Positions 1,085-8,146 of a stretch of DNA of 36,845 bases are shown in pieces. Both the position numbers and the translations under genes were made by a program. Positions within the stretch are counted from its first letter, which is position 1, and each line of letters begins with the position of its first letter. The notes beneath the pieces were generated by a model that saw only the letters and a list, made by a program, of their open reading frames with translations, was not told the origin of the DNA and did no database searches. The stretch comes from Natronohydrobacter sp. (GTDB lineage Bacteria > Pseudomonadota > Alphaproteobacteria > Rhodobacterales > Rhodobacteraceae), in assembly GCA_007125005.1 (NCBI GenBank), contig SLDY01000143.1:1-36845 (forward strand). Reading direction: 5' to 3'.

Positions 1085-1676
1085 GCTGGCACTCCTGTTG
1101 AACATGTGATCCGGCCTGGCCCAGCAGCTCTGCCAGTGCTGCGAGCACAGTATCGAGATTGATCTCGCGCTCTTGTATCCCAAGCCGTAGTGCTACCTGT
1201 GCATCCGAAAAACTCGGCTCCGCCACGACCGCCATCCCGGCATGCCCGCTGTCCAAGACAACCTCTTTCAGCGAAGCCACGACAGAAGGTGCACAATGGA
1301 TCTCGGTTTGCACATCGATCGCTCGGGCAATAACAGCGGCGAGCTCTTCAGCCAGCAAGCCCGGCAGGGCAGCGCGCGCTGCAGATGGCAAGACCTTGGC
1401 AAGCATGGCCTCACTCAGCGCCAGAAAACTGGCCGAAAGTGCCTGATGTGCCTCGGCATAGCTGAAACGGACCGCCTGTAACGCCTCTTCCGCAGCGACC
1501 CGGCGCAGGGCATCCTCGTCACGCATCTGCTCCAGCGCATCCTGCCAACCCGCTGCATATCCCTGCTCATAAGCGGCCTCACGAAGCTTTTCGGCCTCGG
1601 TCCGGCTGATGGCGCAGGGCGCGTCCTGATGGTTGCCTGTTTCGAAGACTTCGAGCCTGAGCGCGGCATGCCTCAT
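1077..1676 (-). CDS. fliH: FliH-like flagellar export stator protein
   Basis: FliH binds the flagellar export ATPase FliI and tethers it to the C-ring. The 199-residue protein has a helical, Ala/Glu-rich N-terminal half with AAYEQGYAAGWQDAL at about 34-48, resembling the ExxxGxxxG-type repeats of FliH. A C-terminal domain follows (about 100-190). Sequence conservation in this family is low, so the call depends partly on its place between fliF and fliN, where alphaproteobacteria usually carry fliH. Its ATG overlaps the fliF stop in an ATGA, and its stop overlaps the fliN start, so the run is probably one transcript. fliI is not in the window and must be encoded elsewhere. Confidence 0.8.
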   Translation of the reverse strand: MRHAALRLEVFETGNHQDAPCAISRTEAEKLREAAYEQGYAAGWQDALEQMRDEDALRRVAAEEALQAVRFSYAEAHQALSASFLALSEAMLAKVLPSAARAALPGLLAEELAAVIARAIDVQTEIHCAPSVVASLKEVVLDSGHAGMAVVAEPSFSDAQVALRLGIQEREINLDTVLAALAELLGQAGSHVQQECQHG

Positions 1677-3241
1677 GACCGCTCCTTCCGTTCGTCCATC
1701 CAGTGCCGCAAGACATGCACTGCCTCCTGACCACGCGCATCAATAAGCTTTTGCAGGCGCGCGACGGGGTCTTCATCCTCGGATTGCTGAGCGTCTTGCA
1801 TTGGTGCGAGACCATTCGCATCAGGTTTCTCGCTGCGCGGCAGGGCGGCAAATTCCTGACCCGGTGGGAGCATCGGCGCCTCTTGCGCGCTGCGCCCGAG
1901 CGCCTTTAGAACAGGCCGAAGGCCAAACAGGCTGATAAGCAGCAGCGCAAGCAGCAGAAACGCCCATTTCAGCAAGGTCATAAGATCAAGGCTCGTGGTC
2001 GCAAAAAGACCACCGCCCGCCTCTGAACCGAGCGCTGCCACAGGTTCGAACGGGAGCGAGCGCAGCGTGATTACATCTCCGCGGCTCTCGTCAAAACCGA
2101 TCGCCGAGGCAACGAGGTCACGCAGGGCCTCAAGCTCCTCCGCCGGGCGCGGTGCCCATCGCAACTGACCATCTTCACCTGCGACCTGCTGCCCGTCAAT
2201 CAACACCGCGACTGTGATACGCCGCACAGCTCCCGGCAACCGCTCGAGTTCGCGCCGAGTCTCGGTGAGTTCGAAATTCGTGCGCTGCCGGGTCTGGGTT
2301 TCACGCGCCTCGGCCGTACCGTCTGCCCCGGCGGCATCGCCATCGGGCAGGTTGCTGGCAACAGTCACACCCTGGCGGCGGGTGTCTGTGCTCGTGACAC
2401 TATTCTCCTCAACTTCCGTGCTGATCGCTACGCGGGCCTCCGGATCAAGCCGTCGCTCGTGAATATGCTCACGATCGGTCACAGTCTCGACGCTTACCTC
2501 GACCACGGCACGACCATGCCCGACATGAGCTTCCAGCAAGCGTTCTACATTGCGGCGCAATTGCTGCGCACGATCGCCACCCGTGGCAGAGATCGCGAGA
2601 TCGGAATCCGGCCCGTACACCAAACCGCCATTGCCATCGATCACTGAAACATCGTCAGGTGCCATCCCGGCAACCGCAGAGGCCACCAGAAAGCGCAGCG
2701 CACGCGCTTGCGTGGGATTGAGCCCAGCCCCTGTTGTCACCACTGTTACCGATGCGGTAGGGGAGATCTCTCGCCGAAAAGGACTGCTGCCAGCTTGCGC
2801 GATATGAACCCGCGCCGTGCGGATATGGGGGCTTGCAACAATTGTCCGGGCCAGTTCGCCTTGCTTGGCGCGCCAATAGGCCGCATCGAACATCTGTGAC
2901 GTCGTCCCGAAACCCGAGAGATTCTCAAGTAATTCATAGCCTGCATAGGTATTGGTCGGCAGGCCGCTTGCCGCCAGCATGAGACGGGTTTCATCGCGCG
3001 AATTGCTCGGCACAAACACAGCATCGCCTCGCACCGCGTAGGGGATGCTGCGGGCTTCCAGCGCCTGAATCACCTCGCCTGCCGCAGCATCTTCCAGCCC
3101 CGCATAGAGCAGCGACATGCCCGGAGAGGCCGCGATGCGCCCCAGGATCACGACCATCGCGACCAGCGCAAGGGCGCTGCCGACCAGCAGACCACGCCGC
3201 CGCATATCCAATGAATCCCAAACAGACTGAAGCTGTTGCAC
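1673..3241 (-). CDS. fliF: Flagellar MS-ring protein FliF
   Basis: FliF builds the MS ring in the inner membrane, the base on which the rod, export gate and C-ring assemble. The 522-residue protein has a first transmembrane helix near residues 18-38, then the periplasmic ring-building domain (LLYAGLEDAAAGEVIQALEA, ASPHIRTARVHIA). A low-complexity Glu/Thr-rich stretch lies around 270-320. A second transmembrane helix is near 425-445, followed by a cytoplasmic FliG-binding tail. The start is GTG, supported by GAAGGAG eight bases upstream. It is the first gene of the minus-strand operon and diverges from fliL across 114 bp. The tail is somewhat shorter than in enterobacterial FliF (about 550-560). 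Confidence 0.96.
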   Translation of the reverse strand: MQQLQSVWDSLDMRRRGLLVGSALALVAMVVILGRIAASPGMSLLYAGLEDAAAGEVIQALEARSIPYAVRGDAVFVPSNSRDETRLMLAASGLPTNTYAGYELLENLSGFGTTSQMFDAAYWRAKQGELARTIVASPHIRTARVHIAQAGSSPFRREISPTASVTVVTTGAGLNPTQARALRFLVASAVAGMAPDDVSVIDGNGGLVYGPDSDLAISATGGDRAQQLRRNVERLLEAHVGHGRAVVEVSVETVTDREHIHERRLDPEARVAISTEVEENSVTSTDTRRQGVTVASNLPDGDAAGADGTAEARETQTRQRTNFELTETRRELERLPGAVRRITVAVLIDGQQVAGEDGQLRWAPRPAEELEALRDLVASAIGFDESRGDVITLRSLPFEPVAALGSEAGGGLFATTSLDLMTLLKWAFLLLALLLISLFGLRPVLKALGRSAQEAPMLPPGQEFAALPRSEKPDANGLAPMQDAQQSEDEDPVARLQKLIDARGQEAVHVLRHWMDERKERS

Positions 3242-3295
3242 TGCGATTCTCCTTCAATTCGGCTTCTGCCGTGAACCGGTTTTCGCAGGCAGGGA

Positions 3296-3310
3296 TTAAC
3301 ATTCGGTTAG
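3296..3310. promoter_or_regulatory. CtrA-like box between fliF and fliL
   Basis: The sequence TTAACATTCGGTTAG matches the alphaproteobacterial CtrA consensus TTAA-N7-TTAA at 7 of 8 fixed positions. It lies 46 bases upstream of the fliL ATG and 55 bases upstream of the fliF GTG, so it could serve either or both divergent operons. Established knowledge: CtrA directly or indirectly activates flagellar genes in Rhodobacterales. I saw no convincing sigma-54 or sigma-28 element in the same interval. Confidence 0.5.
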
Positions 3311-3355
3311 TGACCTTGTGGCAAAACAGGATATCGATCGAGAGTATGAGACCCC

Positions 3356-3841
3356 ATGACGGATATAACACAACCCACTGGTGAGGCCCCGGAACCAGCC
3401 CGCAAGAAAAGCCTCTTACGCCCTGTTCTGCTTGGTTCTCTGGGCGCCTTGCTACTTGGTGCGCTGGCCTTTTATGCAGTGTTCTCCGGGCTGATTCTCA
3501 CCAACCAGGAACCGGCAAAACCCGGCAAGGCGGCAGTAGCAGACACTGTTTTTCTTGCCCTCGATCCGATCACGATCTCCCCACCACCACAACGCGGTGC
3601 GCGATTTGTCCGCTTAGGCGTACAAATCGAGGTGGCGCGCACATCGCAGGCAGAGATGTCGCGGCTCGAACCAAGGTTCGTTGATATGATCAACACATAT
3701 CTCCACGCGGTTGATCTGGACGATCTTCGCCAGCCTGCCGCACTGATCAAGCTGCGATCTCAATTGCTTCGCAGATTTCAGCTTATCGCGGGTGAAGGGC
3801 ATCTCCGCGATATCCTGATCACAGAATTTATCATCGATTAG
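3356..3841 (+). CDS. fliL: Flagellar basal body-associated protein FliL
   Basis: FliL is a single-pass inner-membrane protein that surrounds the stator units and supports torque generation. The 161-residue product has a short basic cytoplasmic N terminus (EPARKKSLLRPV), a transmembrane helix at about 23-46, and a periplasmic stomatin-like domain. That domain shows the family's FLALDPITISPP and FVRLGVQIEV strands and a closing ILITEFIID. It opens the plus-strand arm of the flagellar locus; the next gene starts 8 bases after its stop. No strong Shine-Dalgarno precedes the ATG. Confidence 0.93.
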   Translation: MTDITQPTGEAPEPARKKSLLRPVLLGSLGALLLGALAFYAVFSGLILTNQEPAKPGKAAVADTVFLALDPITISPPPQRGARFVRLGVQIEVARTSQAEMSRLEPRFVDMINTYLHAVDLDDLRQPAALIKLRSQLLRRFQLIAGEGHLRDILITEFIID

Positions 3842-3849
3842 AGGGTCTG

Positions 3850-4266
3850 ATGGAAATCATTATTGATATTGTCATCGCAATCGCAGCCTTTGTTGCTGCG
3901 GCTTATTGTCTGGTTCTGTCACGCAGATTGCGCGCCCTCGCCCGCCTCGACGGCGATCTGGGGCGTGCGATCGCCATCCTGTCACAACAGGTCGATGGAT
4001 TGAGCTCGGCGCTTGCCAGAGCGCAGACCTCCACAAAGGCATCCGAGCAGGCGCTCGCAGAAAAAATCGCGGAGGCAGAGACCACGGCGCGCCGTCTTGA
4101 ACTGCTCATGGCGGCCTATCGCCCCCCTCCCCCCGAGACTACAAGCGGGCTGACATCGCCCCGCGAAACGGATGAGTTCACGCCAAGCATCCGTCAGGGA
4201 TCGAGAGCGCCTGAACGCACCCGGCGTGTCTTGCGACATCGCGAATCACATGGAGTAGCACCATGA
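3850..4266 (+). CDS. Small membrane coiled-coil protein in flagellar operon
   Basis: I do not recognise a characterised family with certainty. The 138-residue product has an N-terminal membrane anchor (residues 3-23, IIIDIVIAIAAFVAAAYCLV) and a basic stop-transfer RRLRALARL. A heptad-like coiled coil follows at about 35-92, then a Pro/Arg-rich disordered tail. This layout resembles the small proteins next to fliL in other alphaproteobacteria (DUF6468-type), but that match is from memory. The position between fliL and the MotE-like gene, and the ATGA overlap with the latter, argue for a role in motor or stator assembly; that role is inference. Confidence 0.75.
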   Translation: MEIIIDIVIAIAAFVAAAYCLVLSRRLRALARLDGDLGRAIAILSQQVDGLSSALARAQTSTKASEQALAEKIAEAETTARRLELLMAAYRPPPPETTSGLTSPRETDEFTPSIRQGSRAPERTRRVLRHRESHGVAP

Positions 4267-4841
4267 TATCTTCTGGGCGCTATCGGTGGTTGGGTGTATC
4301 TGGCCTGTCGATCCTCGCCCTGATCCTCATAGGTGCAGGCATGTCGCGGCTCGGGCTGGGGATTGCAGTTGTTCTGGCAGGCGAAGAGGTGACACTCGAA
4401 ACCGGGCCAGAGCTGCACATTGCTGACACTCAAGAGGATCTGGGTGATTTGTTCCAAGCACTTCGAGAGCGTGCGCGGGCCCATGATGCGCGCGAAGCAT
4501 GGCTCGAAGAGCGTGCCGAAGAACTCAGAGCGGCGGAAGCCGAACTCGCCAGACAACTGGAGATGCTGGCACAGGCCGAGGCGCAACTTGCCGCAACGCT
4601 CCAGATCACGGAAACAGCTTCAGAAAAGGACCTGCAACATCTGACAACTGTTTTCGAGAGTATGAAGCCAGCCCAGACTGCTGAACTTTTCCAGCAAATG
4701 GACATAGAATTCGCTGCTGGTTTCATCGCGAGATTACGCCCCGAAATTGCCGGCGAGGTTATGTCAGGGCTCGATCCGATGATTGGCTACGCGATCAGTG
4801 CAGTCCTCGCTGGCCGGCATGCCCGCACTCCGACAAGGTAA
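4263..4841 (+). CDS. motE: MotE-like flagellar motor chaperone (MgtE N-domain type)
   Basis: The 192-residue protein has an N-terminal membrane or signal segment (about 9-36), a long Ala/Glu-rich coiled coil (about 60-120), and a C-terminal helical domain with FESMKPAQTAELFQQM and FAAGFIARLRPEIAGEVMSG. This is the arrangement of the MotE family (COG3334). In Sinorhizobium meliloti, MotE is a periplasmic chaperone that folds the motility protein MotC. Here the gene sits just upstream of motA and of a 774-residue secreted protein that could be its client. The start overlaps the previous stop (ATGA). The family assignment is good; the MotC-chaperone function is inferred. Confidence 0.8.
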   Translation: MISSGRYRWLGVSGLSILALILIGAGMSRLGLGIAVVLAGEEVTLETGPELHIADTQEDLGDLFQALRERARAHDAREAWLEERAEELRAAEAELARQLEMLAQAEAQLAATLQITETASEKDLQHLTTVFESMKPAQTAELFQQMDIEFAAGFIARLRPEIAGEVMSGLDPMIGYAISAVLAGRHARTPTR

Positions 4842-4948
4842 AGACTGCGCAGGCGCATAGTTGAAGGAAATTCTTAAATCTTTGATGCAACACTGGCCTG
4901 AGAGCGACAGCAGGAAGTCTGTCACAGCGTATCGAGGGGAGTTGTGTC

Positions 4949-5818
4949 GTGTTTGCGATAATTGGAATTGTCATTGTCCTCGTAATGGTGTTCGGCGGCT
5001 ATCTGGGCTCTGGCGGCACGATGGGCATCATCCTGAAGGCGTTACCATTCGAAATGGTCATGATCGGCGGGGCTGCGCTTGGCGGGTTCATCCTTGGAAA
5101 TGACATCACCACGATCAAGGCAACAGGGCGCGATGTTGCGCGCGTCTTCAAAGGCGCCAGATGGTCGCCCTCCGATTATCGCGACCTGCTCTGCTTGCTG
5201 TTTGAACTTCTCTGGCTGGCGCGTCAGAACCCTGTCGCTTTGGAAGAGCATGTAGAAAGCCCGGAATCGTCTGCAATCATCACGCGCTATCCGCGTATCG
5301 CAGCAGATCATGAGGTGATCGAGCTTATCTGTGATACCCTCCGGGTGGCCTCCATGAACTACAATGACCCACATCAGGTTGAAGAAGTGCTCGACAAGCG
5401 TCTGGAGGTGCGAAAAAACCATGCACTCCATACAAGCCATGCGATCCAGATTGTCGCGGATGCACTGCCCGCGCTCGGGATCGTTGCCGCAGTCCTCGGG
5501 ATCATCAAGACAATGGGCGCGATAGATGAGCCGCCTTCAATCCTTGGCGCCATGATCGGCGGCGCCCTGACCGGAACCTTTCTGGGAGTTTTCCTTGCCT
5601 ATTGCTTTGTGGGTCCGATCGCCAGCCGCATGCGTATGATCGTCGAGGAAGACGATCATTTCTATCAACTCATCCGCGAAGTGCTCGTGGCCAATCTGCA
5701 CGCGCATCCGGCCAATATCTGTATCGAAGTAGGCAGACAGAACACGCCACATAGCAATCGTCCGGAATTCAACGATATCGACTCGGCAATGCGCGAAATA
5801 AAAAAGAATGCGGCCTGA
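4949..5818 (+). CDS. motA: Flagellar motor stator protein MotA
   Basis: MotA pairs with MotB to form the proton-conducting stator that drives the flagellum. The 289-residue protein starts with a transmembrane helix (FAIIGIVIVLVMVFGGYL) and the second helix PFEMVMIGGAALGGFILGND. A large cytoplasmic loop follows, then helices three and four: ADALPALGIVAAVLGIIKTM carries the conserved channel Pro, and the last is ALTGTFLGVFLAYCFVGPIA. Start is GTG with GAGGGGAG about 7 bases upstream. A 107-bp gap from the MotE-like gene may contain a separate promoter. No motB is adjacent, so the partner must be encoded elsewhere. Confidence 0.96.
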   Translation: MFAIIGIVIVLVMVFGGYLGSGGTMGIILKALPFEMVMIGGAALGGFILGNDITTIKATGRDVARVFKGARWSPSDYRDLLCLLFELLWLARQNPVALEEHVESPESSAIITRYPRIAADHEVIELICDTLRVASMNYNDPHQVEEVLDKRLEVRKNHALHTSHAIQIVADALPALGIVAAVLGIIKTMGAIDEPPSILGAMIGGALTGTFLGVFLAYCFVGPIASRMRMIVEEDDHFYQLIREVLVANLHAHPANICIEVGRQNTPHSNRPEFNDIDSAMREIKKNAA

Positions 5819-5821
5819 GCC

Positions 5822-8146
5822 ATGAGGTGGTTCGTTTTTATTTCTTTGCTCTGCGCCAGCTTCGCCTTGCCTTCGCGCACAACTGCAGAACCTGCGTCGG
5901 TCAAGGTACATGCCGGCGAGCATAAGGACTATACAAGGTTGCTCATGCAGTTGCCCGATGGGCTGTCTTGGAGCCTGACCAGAACAGGAGGTATCGCAAG
6001 TCTGGAAATCGATGGAGGCGCCATAGATTTCGACGTTTCGCAAACTTTTGCACGTATTCCGCGAACGCGCCTGAAATACATTCAACAGATCGGCAATGGT
6101 ATTGAATTGGAGCTTCTATGCGCCTGTGATGTCATGGCCTATGAAGACGTTCCACAATTCCTCATCATTGATATCAAGGGAACGGTCTCGGATGGCAGCC
6201 TCGCACCGACAACATCATTGCGACCATTCCCCCGTCGCGACATGGGAATCACCACCGGTTCCGAAGCTGCGTTTGAGCCAACACGTGCAGGTCAGGCATT
6301 GGCACAGCGATTGAGACGTGTTGATGCAGAGGCGAGCCCGCTCGCGTCACTGGCCTTGAATGCCATCATGGACATGCGCGCACCGCTACACAGAGAGCCC
6401 CGGCCGGAAGATGCAAAGACAGATCGCATGACCGGGTCGGCTACTGAAAATGAGTTGACTGAAGAAATCATTGAAGTGCTCAGAGGCGCCGTCATATCAG
6501 GGCAATTGGAGCCCCCGTCTCTCGATCAGGTTTCCCGGGCGCGTTCGGATGAGTGGCAAAAGAGGGCGCCAGACGAGCTGCGCCTCACTGATATCGAGCC
6601 GCATATATCTGTCATCGGGCTGATAGAGGGGCATTTACGCACAGCCAGCACTGAGGCGATGCCAGATACATGCCCGAATCCGGAGGCGCTCGATATCGCA
6701 GCATGGTTTGAGAGGGTTGGCTCAGAGAAGAATTCAGATTTGCTGCACGCCTTGACTGATGAATTCGGGCGAGTTTCGAATGAAGGAGCTCTCCGGCTCG
6801 CGCAATCTTATTTGGCGCTTGGTTTCGGTGCCGAGGGGCGGATGCTGCTGTCGCTGATCGCACCGGAGGAAAATATCCCTCCGGAACTGGTAACGATAAG
6901 CTATCTTCTCGATCTCGAAACCCCGCCAAAGCGCATGCCCGCCGGCGCAGAAAATTGCGGGAAAATGGGGGTTTTATGGGATTTCCTCGCAGATCCGCCG
7001 CGTGATCAGCTAGCGCAGGCGCGCCTTGATAAGCTGGTACACGCGGTAAAGGCTCTGCCCAGGCATCTCAGGATGCAGCTGGGCCCCAGTGTGATCGGCC
7101 CGCTTTCGGCTTTAGGGCACATCGAAGAAGCGCGTGTCCTGCGTCAAGCTGTTGAGCGCTTGGGAGACGACTTGAAATCCGAATTCGCTCTCACCTTCGG
7201 CACTCACGAGCCAGAGACGGTGAGGGCTGAGCGATCCATGAGCATCAATCAACTCCAGCCTACAGCCTTGTCGGATAAGGCATTGCTCAGCGAGTTGTCA
7301 CGCAGCCACCTCGCTGCACCGACAGACCGCGCGGCCATTCTTGAGCGCGCCAGCTTGCGGCAGTTCGATCTGCGCCATAGCCCTGAAGGCGACCGATTTG
7401 CGGAGCAAATCATCCGTGCTCATGCCCGCGCGGACGATTTCCAGAATGCTTTCGCGATGCTTGATGGGCGCGAGAGCGGGTTGGACAGCGACCTGCGAGA
7501 GATGCTCAGGCAAGATCTGCTTGCCGCACTTGTGCAAAGGGCCGAAGATACCGATTTTGTGATCAACATTTTCGCTCAGGCACCATGGACGCGATCAGGT
7601 CTCGAAGAGGCGACATCGCAGGCCATCGCGCGCAGGCTCACCGAACTGGGCTTTGCGGATCAGGCCAGACTGATGGAGCAGTCGCGAAAGACAGCGGCAA
7701 ATGCGGTCCGCAACCAGATCCTCGGCGCTCAAGCGATAGATGCCACAACGCTGGAACCCACCCTCTTGTTGGATGAAATAACCGCAGCACCACCAACTGC
7801 CGGCCAAGACGCGGCTCCAGACGGACCGACTGAGGGGACAGCCGGAACCACTGCGGATGCAAATACTGTGCGCGCCCTGAACGCGGTCGCGGCCTTGCGG
7901 CAGGAAGCGCTTGCCGAACGCGCACCGAGAGCGGCGGGCGCTGACCTTACGCAAGGAGCAACGGGCACACTGGAGCCCGACACAGAGCGAGCTTCAGGCC
8001 AGCCGGCAGAAGCCGCTCTTGCGACCGGGAGTGAAGAACCCACGCGCAATAGCGAAATACTGGCACAGAGCGAACAGGCTCTTGAAGAGAGCGTCGCGCT
8101 GCGAGCGCGCATTCAAGCCTTGATCGGCACCACAGCATCACAATGA
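5822..8146 (+). CDS. Large secreted protein of unknown function beside motA
   Basis: I do not recognise a named family for this 774-residue protein. It has a Sec signal peptide (residues 1 to about 22, FVFISLLCASFALPSRTTAEP). A beta-rich N-terminal domain follows (about 25-120: HKDYTRLLMQLPDG, FARIPRTRLK, LLCACDVMAYED, LIIDIKG) that reads like an AMIN-type or related beta-sandwich domain. The middle (about 270-620) is helical and TPR-like, with repeats such as LRLAQSYLALGFGAEGRMLL. The tail (about 640-774) is low-complexity and Ala/Thr/Glu-rich, ending in a probable coiled coil. It starts 3 bases after the motA stop, so the two are almost certainly co-transcribed. Its export, its position and the nearby MotE-like gene suggest a periplasmic stator-supporting protein, by analogy with rhizobial MotC. 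I see no alignment-level similarity to MotC. Confidence 0.85.
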   Translation: MRWFVFISLLCASFALPSRTTAEPASVKVHAGEHKDYTRLLMQLPDGLSWSLTRTGGIASLEIDGGAIDFDVSQTFARIPRTRLKYIQQIGNGIELELLCACDVMAYEDVPQFLIIDIKGTVSDGSLAPTTSLRPFPRRDMGITTGSEAAFEPTRAGQALAQRLRRVDAEASPLASLALNAIMDMRAPLHREPRPEDAKTDRMTGSATENELTEEIIEVLRGAVISGQLEPPSLDQVSRARSDEWQKRAPDELRLTDIEPHISVIGLIEGHLRTASTEAMPDTCPNPEALDIAAWFERVGSEKNSDLLHALTDEFGRVSNEGALRLAQSYLALGFGAEGRMLLSLIAPEENIPPELVTISYLLDLETPPKRMPAGAENCGKMGVLWDFLADPPRDQLAQARLDKLVHAVKALPRHLRMQLGPSVIGPLSALGHIEEARVLRQAVERLGDDLKSEFALTFGTHEPETVRAERSMSINQLQPTALSDKALLSELSRSHLAAPTDRAAILERASLRQFDLRHSPEGDRFAEQIIRAHARADDFQNAFAMLDGRESGLDSDLREMLRQDLLAALVQRAEDTDFVINIFAQAPWTRSGLEEATSQAIARRLTELGFADQARLMEQSRKTAANAVRNQILGAQAIDATTLEPTLLLDEITAAPPTAGQDAAPDGPTEGTAGTTADANTVRALNAVAALRQEALAERAPRAAGADLTQGATGTLEPDTERASGQPAEAALATGSEEPTRNSEILAQSEQALEESVALRARIQALIGTTASQ

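Follow-up and report, generated by a model that had tools for sequence, protein, structure and literature searches.

A fliL-pflI-motE-motA-motK block in the archetypal Rhodobacterales flagellar cluster of a Natronohydrobacter genome

The window analysed here is a stretch of 36,845 nucleotides (nt) from Natronohydrobacter sp., a member of the Rhodobacteraceae, and comprises the whole of contig SLDY01000143.1 (G000:C24) of a 2.83 Mb genome (assembly GCA_007125005.1). It carries a block of flagellar motor genes in which fliL, pflI, motE, motA and motK run divergently from fliF, and these genes are a new family member of the MotE-MotK system described in Cereibacter sphaeroides. An initial sequence-only reading had proposed a stator-accessory gene set around motA; this is partly supported, and the same operon was already published in 2024 (PMC10954123). 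The additions to the known system are losses of a MotE cysteine, relatives of MotK across the class and the state of a MotB motif. The features of the block are as follows.

1673..3241, minus strand: fliF (MS-ring), with PF01514 at E 1e-44 and PF08345 at E 1e-32; divergent from the operon
3242..3355, no strand: fliF/fliL divergent intergenic region, with a one-mismatch CtrA-type box (TTAA-N7-TTAG) at 3296-3310
3356..3841, plus strand: fliL, with PF03748 above the Pfam cut-off
3850..4266, plus strand: pflI (138 amino acids, aa; CP2 of Phaeobacter inhibens by gene order), assigned by position, family alignment A3 and DUF6468-type sequence
4263..4841, plus strand: motE (192 aa; CP3 by gene order), assigned by MgtE_N in relatives, AlphaFold2 (AF2) model and fold comparison
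4949..5818, plus strand: motA, stator A subunit (289 aa), with TIGR03818 at 347.7 bits against a cut-off of 303.8
5822..8146, plus strand: motK (774 aa; CP4 by gene order), assigned by alignments A1 and A4, AF2 model and fold comparison

The four genes from pflI to motK lie where the sequence-only reading had placed them, all on the plus strand. Their ends were described as overlapping or adjacent, which holds for fliL to pflI (8 nt apart), pflI to motE (an overlap of 4 nt) and motA to motK (3 nt apart), but not for motE to motA, which are separated by 107 nt. The left part of the window continues on the minus strand as fliP-fliN-fliH-fliF; FliF, FliN and FliP all exceed their Pfam cut-offs, and the frame at 1077-1676, without a Pfam match at E 0.001, is called FliH by its place.

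The order fliL-pflI-motE-motA-motK, divergent from fliF, is that of a published MotE-MotK operon. The fla2 operon of C. sphaeroides reads fliL2-pflI-motE-motA2-motK and encodes a MotE of 185 aa and a MotK of 652 aa, the latter with a predicted AMIN-like N-terminus and a TPR-like remainder (PMC10954123). Both proteins are periplasmic, bind one another and MotB2, and sit at the flagellated pole; motE and motK mutants are paralysed yet flagellated, with similar amounts of hook protein, and MotE disappears when MotK is missing, but MotK is still present when MotE is missing (PMC10954123). The window shares with this system the gene order, an exported coiled-coil MotE and the AMIN-like plus TPR-like plan of MotK. 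It differs in the length of MotK (774 aa here, 652 there) and in having a cysteine-free MotE, whereas MotE of C. sphaeroides relies on Cys20 (numbering of the mature protein).

The same arrangement is found in P. inhibens, where the locus-tag order is fliP-fliN-fliH-fliF, fliL-CP2-CP3-motA-CP4 (PMC12363192). There the block runs on into sltF-flhA, whereas here the SLT gene and flhA are on another contig. Because the gene order is the same, CP2, CP3 and CP4 appear to be PflI, MotE and MotK. In Phaeobacter sp. HF9A (L113), fliF, fliL, pflI, motE and motA follow in that order, and after them comes the beginning of motK, which is cut by the contig end. A word search of the main text of PMC12363192 gave no occurrence of MotE, MotK, PflI or Velez, and the correspondence links two literatures that seemingly use separate names for one set of genes (MotE/MotK/PflI in C. 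sphaeroides, CP3/CP4/CP2 in P. inhibens). Insertions in CP2, CP3, motA and CP4 abolish motility in P. inhibens, and the CP mutants were complemented; CP2 and CP3 mutants release only FlgH, with no flagella detected by electron microscopy (EM), and CP4 mutants release fewer proteins (PMC12363192). CP1-4 are described in the same paper as exclusive to fla1-type clusters.

The archetypal Rhodobacterales cluster to which these operons belong is called fla1-type in the Phaeobacter naming and fla2 in C. sphaeroides (PMC12363192, PMC10954123). The window genome has one motB, one flhA and one flgI, and therefore a single flagellar system of this archetypal type, which the assembly splits into three or more blocks. 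Besides the window, contig C127 carries motB-flgE-flgK-flgL-flgI and contig C63 carries the SLT gene, flhA, fliR, flhB and later genes (Pfam matches for motB, flgE, flgI, the SLT gene, fliR and flhB; other genes of the two contigs read by eye). The blocks are in the expected gene order.

Two further systems invite comparison. In Sinorhizobium meliloti, MotE likewise works with a TPR protein of the periplasm that is linked to the stator, MotC, and the sequence-only reading had regarded the 774-aa protein as a possible MotC counterpart. This did not survive: MotC has no AMIN domain and needs MotE for stability (review PMC13023049), and it is encoded downstream of motB, whereas motK here follows motA and motB is on another contig. 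The AMIN-bearing domain plan and the gene place thus rule out membership in MotC, which was compared by description, and C. sphaeroides is reported to be without a MotC homologue (PMC10954123). The FlgY-PflA pair of Campylobacter jejuni and the FlbB-FlcB pair of Borrelia also combine an ARM-like E-ring protein with a TPR-rich spoke protein (PMC13023049), although the profile search gave no such solved chain by sequence. A preprint (PMC11870540) and the review PMC13023049 already group MotE with FlgY and MotK with PflA.

MotE of the window matches MgtE_N at E 8e-5 and FlbB at E 2e-5, both below the cut-off, and MgtE_N is found at E <=0.01 in 15/15 aligned MotE members. The AF2 model, built from a 15-row alignment (mean predicted local distance difference test score, pLDDT, 83; predicted template-modelling score, pTM, 0.45), has a signal or anchor helix at 14-40, a coiled coil at 57-133 and four short ARM-like helices at 136-187, with export judged by eye. 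In fold comparison the best scores are Z 10.0 for FliG and Z 7.3 for MgtE, and the FliF-YlxF model 9a67_B reaches Z 8.7 (root-mean-square deviation, rmsd, 23.8). As modelled, MotE shares its coiled coil and ARM domain with E-ring (FlgY) proteins.

MotK begins with a signal peptide (by eye), followed by an AMIN-like domain at 25-119, a linker, a TPR-like solenoid at 287-643, a low-confidence stretch and a conserved C-terminal helix at 743-773. The AF2 model was based on the 84-row alignment A4 (mean pLDDT 75.6, pTM 0.42, 202 residues below 50), which joins 63 of 72 MotK references with the 21 rows of A1; left out were four over-long frames (L083, L090, L092, L119) and five copies or near copies (L075, L091, L125, L142, L144), and three partial sequences (L070, L101, L113) had been removed beforehand. 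The sequence-only reading had asked for an AMIN profile check: no Pfam or NCBIfam model exceeds its cut-off on window MotK, and the AMIN fold is nevertheless recovered by structure, with AmiC at Z 11.3 (rmsd 2.3 over 96 residues) and PilQ at Z 10.2. Small heat-shock proteins reach Z 8.3 on the same part. Against solved structures the MotK profile gave weak matches only (best E 0.014), and a single Foldseek match falls below E 0.001, to the periplasmic scaffold 9hmf of C. jejuni (chain K; E 1.8e-4, TM 0.17). PflA in the 9hmf work has a beta-sandwich joined through a linker to a superhelix of 16 TPRs (PMC12222027); the domain plan of MotK resembles this, while the match to 9hmf_K has a low TM-score. 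MotK is 713-801 aa long in 20 relatives. C284 and C379 are present in 84/84 rows, and C100 and C102, a CxC in the AMIN-like domain, in 77/84 each; after residue 22, 75 rows have exactly four cysteines and seven exactly two. The four conserved cysteines suggest that MotK may contain two disulfides.

Within the Rhodobacteraceae, the distribution of MotK and MotE was compared with that of FlgI. Our family sample comprises 198 genomes, of which 152 have FlgI. The 774-aa protein as query matches 124 of the 198, the 21-row profile A1 finds MotK in 132 and profile A2 finds MotE in 140. All MotK matches fall among the genomes with FlgI (132/152, against 0/46 without), so that MotK is restricted to these within the family. 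MotE is found in 138 genomes with FlgI and in 2/46 without (G028, 86% complete; G113, 90% complete). Both proteins occur together in 129 genomes, MotE alone in 11 and MotK alone in three. Homologues common in non-flagellated relatives, named at the outset as a refuting result, were not seen in this family sample.

The full fliL-pflI-motE-motA-motK block stands beside fliF in 15/20 fetched relatives. The other five have motA-motK only in the fetched stretch (between flgI and flhA in the two read), and in all five fliL-pflI-motE stands beside fliF elsewhere in the genome. Since the split relatives keep each part intact, the operon consists of two sub-blocks, fliL-pflI-motE and motA-motK, each of which holds together. 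Among 80 named MotE loci, motA and motK follow motE in 75; in two of the remaining five (L067, L139) the contig runs out, and in the other three (L068, L129, L140) MotK lies at another place. The locus L068, from a metagenome-assembled genome (MAG) of a relative, has non-flagellar genes after motE and a MotK match elsewhere in the genome.

PflI has one N-terminal membrane helix followed by a coiled coil (both by eye). The window protein of 138 aa is named by gene order, its match to DUF6468 (E 0.0019, 18.7 bits) lying below the curated cut-off of 26.9; DUF6468 is found at E <=0.01 in 13/16 aligned PflI relatives including the window protein, at best 3e-7. Divergent MotE loci extend the picture. 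Ten were collected, from 8/9 FlgI genomes with MotE and without MotK (G139 left out) and from the second MotE copies of G088 and G092. In 10/10, a short membrane-anchored, coiled-coil-like gene immediately precedes the MotE-like gene; seven of these preceding genes match the A3 profile at E <0.05 and the other three were placed by position and look. As a MotK match is found within none of the ten fetched loci, the PflI-like and MotE-like genes stay paired even where MotK is missing. Should these remote matches be true homologues, the fla1-only claim in PMC12363192 would need a limit for CP2 and CP3.

The window MotE has no cysteine at all, and thus no counterpart of the disulfide cysteine known as C20 (mature protein) or C53. 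The C20A form of C. sphaeroides MotE and the C53A form of S. meliloti MotE are both unstable according to the literature. A cysteine just before the coiled coil, which by its place in the protein would be the equivalent of C20/C53, is present in 37/80 named MotE and absent from 43/80, so the cysteine is not family-defining. It is present in 10/10 divergent MotE. On a quick tree of FliF and MotA (73 rows, comprising 72/80 loci and the window; eight loci are without fliF or motA), the cysteine state changes at least seven times, three changes being forced by starred branches, against a mean of 24.7 when states are shuffled. Two starred clades are cysteine-free: one of 17 rows including the window, the other of 15 rows with Phaeobacter, Sulfitobacter, Tateyamaria and Sedimentitalea. 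The change count by itself does not separate gain from loss; that all ten divergent MotE and both model species carry the cysteine speaks for its repeated loss. This raises the question of why a cysteine indispensable in two model species went missing more than once in their relatives. Replacement by a cysteine in a partner protein was considered and rejected, since cysteine counts in PflI and FliL do not differ between the two MotE groups; in raw counts, two-cysteine MotK rows number 8/36 in the cysteine-bearing MotE group versus 1/37 in the cysteine-free group.

Relatives of MotK are not confined to this family. MotK of C. sphaeroides was reported to show structural similarity to Caulobacteraceae proteins, with no sequence similarity found (PMC10954123). 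The 84-row MotK profile matches 125/289 genomes of the class, mostly over the AMIN part. Among the matches listed, 92 genomes (three of the family) have a frame of at least 600 aa, shorter frames (e.g. G294, G487, G383, G228) standing outside this cross-table; those of about 400 aa, probably AmiC amidases, were excluded from the count. FlgI is present in 89 of the 92, the other three being G211 (99% complete), G301 (a locus with MotE and FliL matches) and G423 (57% complete), while 79/168 class genomes with FlgI have no large match among the matches listed. The large AMIN gene was placed relative to flgI in 80/92 genomes: within 20 kb in 50, farther away on the same contig in five and on another contig in 25.

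Twenty loci of the class were fetched, and 19 contain the large AMIN frame, with MotE in the locus in 17/19 and two tandem AMIN matches in 9/19. Seven large AMIN proteins were scanned; TPR was found in six and AMIN or AMIN-like domains in six, several below cut-offs, and L195 had neither. Two MotB-like genes lie upstream of the AMIN gene in 12/19 loci (L178, L179, L182-L185, L187, L189-L193). The one adjoining the AMIN gene mostly has a channel-type Asp; in the farther one this Asp is absent in 6/12, present in 1/12 and unread by pattern in 5/12, and a wider scan found an Asp-bearing MotB-like frame in L181 as well. The Pfam family MotB_plug is found in 9/9 scanned MotB-like proteins (two under cut-off). 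A CheZ-like gene is near in 10/19 loci, with CheZ found in the one scanned. At the level of sequence, these findings suggest that larger AMIN proteins of other alphaproteobacterial families are related to MotK and may represent a common stator-spoke component.

The AMIN fold is known to bind peptidoglycan. The Asp of the MotB GHTD motif, in turn, is what we take to be the contact of MotB with peptidoglycan. In MotB of the window genome (L056:11585-12361, on G000:C127), YADF is kept and OmpA scores 15.5 bits against a cut-off of 27.2 (26.9 bits in the family MotB L039); in alignment with 2zvy, a MotB with a solved structure, its motif reads AHTRGF instead of GHTDDF. We compared 30 MotB, namely that of the window and the best 29 others of 167 matching family genomes (L198-L226), chosen by similarity. 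The motif Asp of the OmpA-type GHTD is found in 0/30, being replaced by Arg in 23, Gln in three, Ser in two, Lys in one and Pro in one, and the motif Arg and the YADF channel Asp are kept in 30/30. It is also absent in three further family loci (L039, L040, L044). Among MotB-like proteins beside AMIN proteins in other families, the Asp is kept in 7/8 with a readable motif. Motif mutations in MotB abolish motility in other species (PMC9093738).

With MotB lacking the motif Asp and MotK carrying an AMIN-like fold of the peptidoglycan-binding type, stator wall anchoring in the Rhodobacteraceae may have moved from MotB to MotK as the wall clamp, with MotE as a ring-side socket; we offer this tentatively and regard it as rather doubtful. 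A tight coupling of Asp loss to MotK is weakened by 5/30 MotB from genomes without a MotK match (G028, G030, G032, G069 and G104, of which G032 and G104 have FlgI), so strict coupling falls short. The question raised is whether MotK rather than MotB holds the cell wall. Clear MotB matches without a FlgI match occur in G030, G069, G115, G117, G129, G140, G141, G154 and G158, perhaps as remnants or through another use of MotB.

Taken as a motor component, the window block very probably represents, within the archetypal flagellar cluster of Rhodobacterales, the PflI-MotE-MotA-MotK segment, in which MotE and MotK place and hold the stators. MotE would be exported, dimerise via its coiled coil and probably form an E-ring round the MS-ring. 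MotK would also be exported, its TPR-like arm extending as a spoke on MotE and touching the periplasmic part of MotB while its N-terminal AMIN domain holds peptidoglycan. Between them, the two proteins may place, hold and perhaps open MotA5MotB2 stator units. PflI would be a coiled-coil protein of the membrane, and its gene keeps company with motE. We infer the E-ring and spoke geometry, peptidoglycan binding by AMIN and any role of PflI with MotE. Periplasmic location, MotE-MotK-MotB2 binding, polar localisation and paralysis of mutants were shown in C. sphaeroides. The earlier proposals that the large protein is a periplasmic stator partner working with MotE, and that the set belongs to the flagellar motor, agree with C. 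sphaeroides, where both proteins bind MotB2 and are needed for rotation, as the mutants show (PMC10954123).

Several observations weigh against this reading. The identity of the window proteins with C. sphaeroides MotK and MotE is drawn from order, family and fold. TPR superhelices match the MotK solenoid at Z 9-10, an unspecific level, and the match to 9hmf chain K has a low TM-score. There is no MotK match in 20/152 FlgI genomes, and G040, G056 and G061 have MotK and no MotE match. No flagella were seen in P. inhibens CP2 and CP3 mutants, whereas filaments are kept in C. sphaeroides motE mutants, and a pure rotation role does not explain both phenotypes. On a different view, flagellar assembly or export would be the main task of these genes and rotation would be lost only as a consequence. 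In its favour, FlgH is the one protein released by P. inhibens CP2 and CP3 mutants, EM detected no flagella on them, and CP4 mutants release less (PMC12363192). We consider this unlikely, since C. sphaeroides motE and motK mutants keep their filaments and have similar hook protein amounts, and paralysis together with MotB2 binding points to the stator (PMC10954123). The comparison raises the question of why equivalent mutants differ between the two species, with filaments retained in C. sphaeroides and none observed in P. inhibens.

It is a little less probable again that MotE serves only as a dedicated chaperone for a large periplasmic protein and is not a motor part, as was initially proposed for Sinorhizobium MotE-MotC. 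S. meliloti MotC is indeed degraded without MotE (PMC13023049), but the dependence is reversed in C. sphaeroides, where MotE needs MotK (PMC10954123), and the 774-aa protein fits poorly the part of chaperone client assigned to it by the sequence-only reading. MotE-sfGFP is at the flagellated pole of C. sphaeroides even without MotK, though the tag may stabilise MotE (PMC10954123); MotE has a FlgY/FlbB-like plan, and in 10/10 divergent-MotE loci it occurs without a MotK match in the locus. As AMIN and TPR modules are common among envelope proteins and window MotK is without a Pfam or NCBIfam match above cut-off, the 774-aa protein could be a general envelope protein merely beside motA, which we judge highly improbable: MotK is absent in 46/46 sampled family genomes without FlgI and, at class level, 89/92 genomes with a large match among the matches listed have FlgI.

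The surroundings of the block can be described briefly. Downstream of motK there is an EnvZ-type kinase and then non-flagellar genes. A search for a CtrA site, using TTAA-N7-TTAG as the consensus that we assume for it, gave no exact match in the window; between fliF and fliL there is only a one-mismatch box, and since such boxes occur in the window about as often as expected by chance (2 observed, 1.86 expected), the box at 3296-3310 by itself lends no support to a CtrA site. On contig C63, a gene between flhB and flgH (L057:12157-12654) looks FliL-type by eye, as in the P. inhibens cluster. In the FliF and MotA tree, the rows nearest to the window are L066, a Rhodobacteraceae MAG, and Roseinatronobacter thiooxidans.

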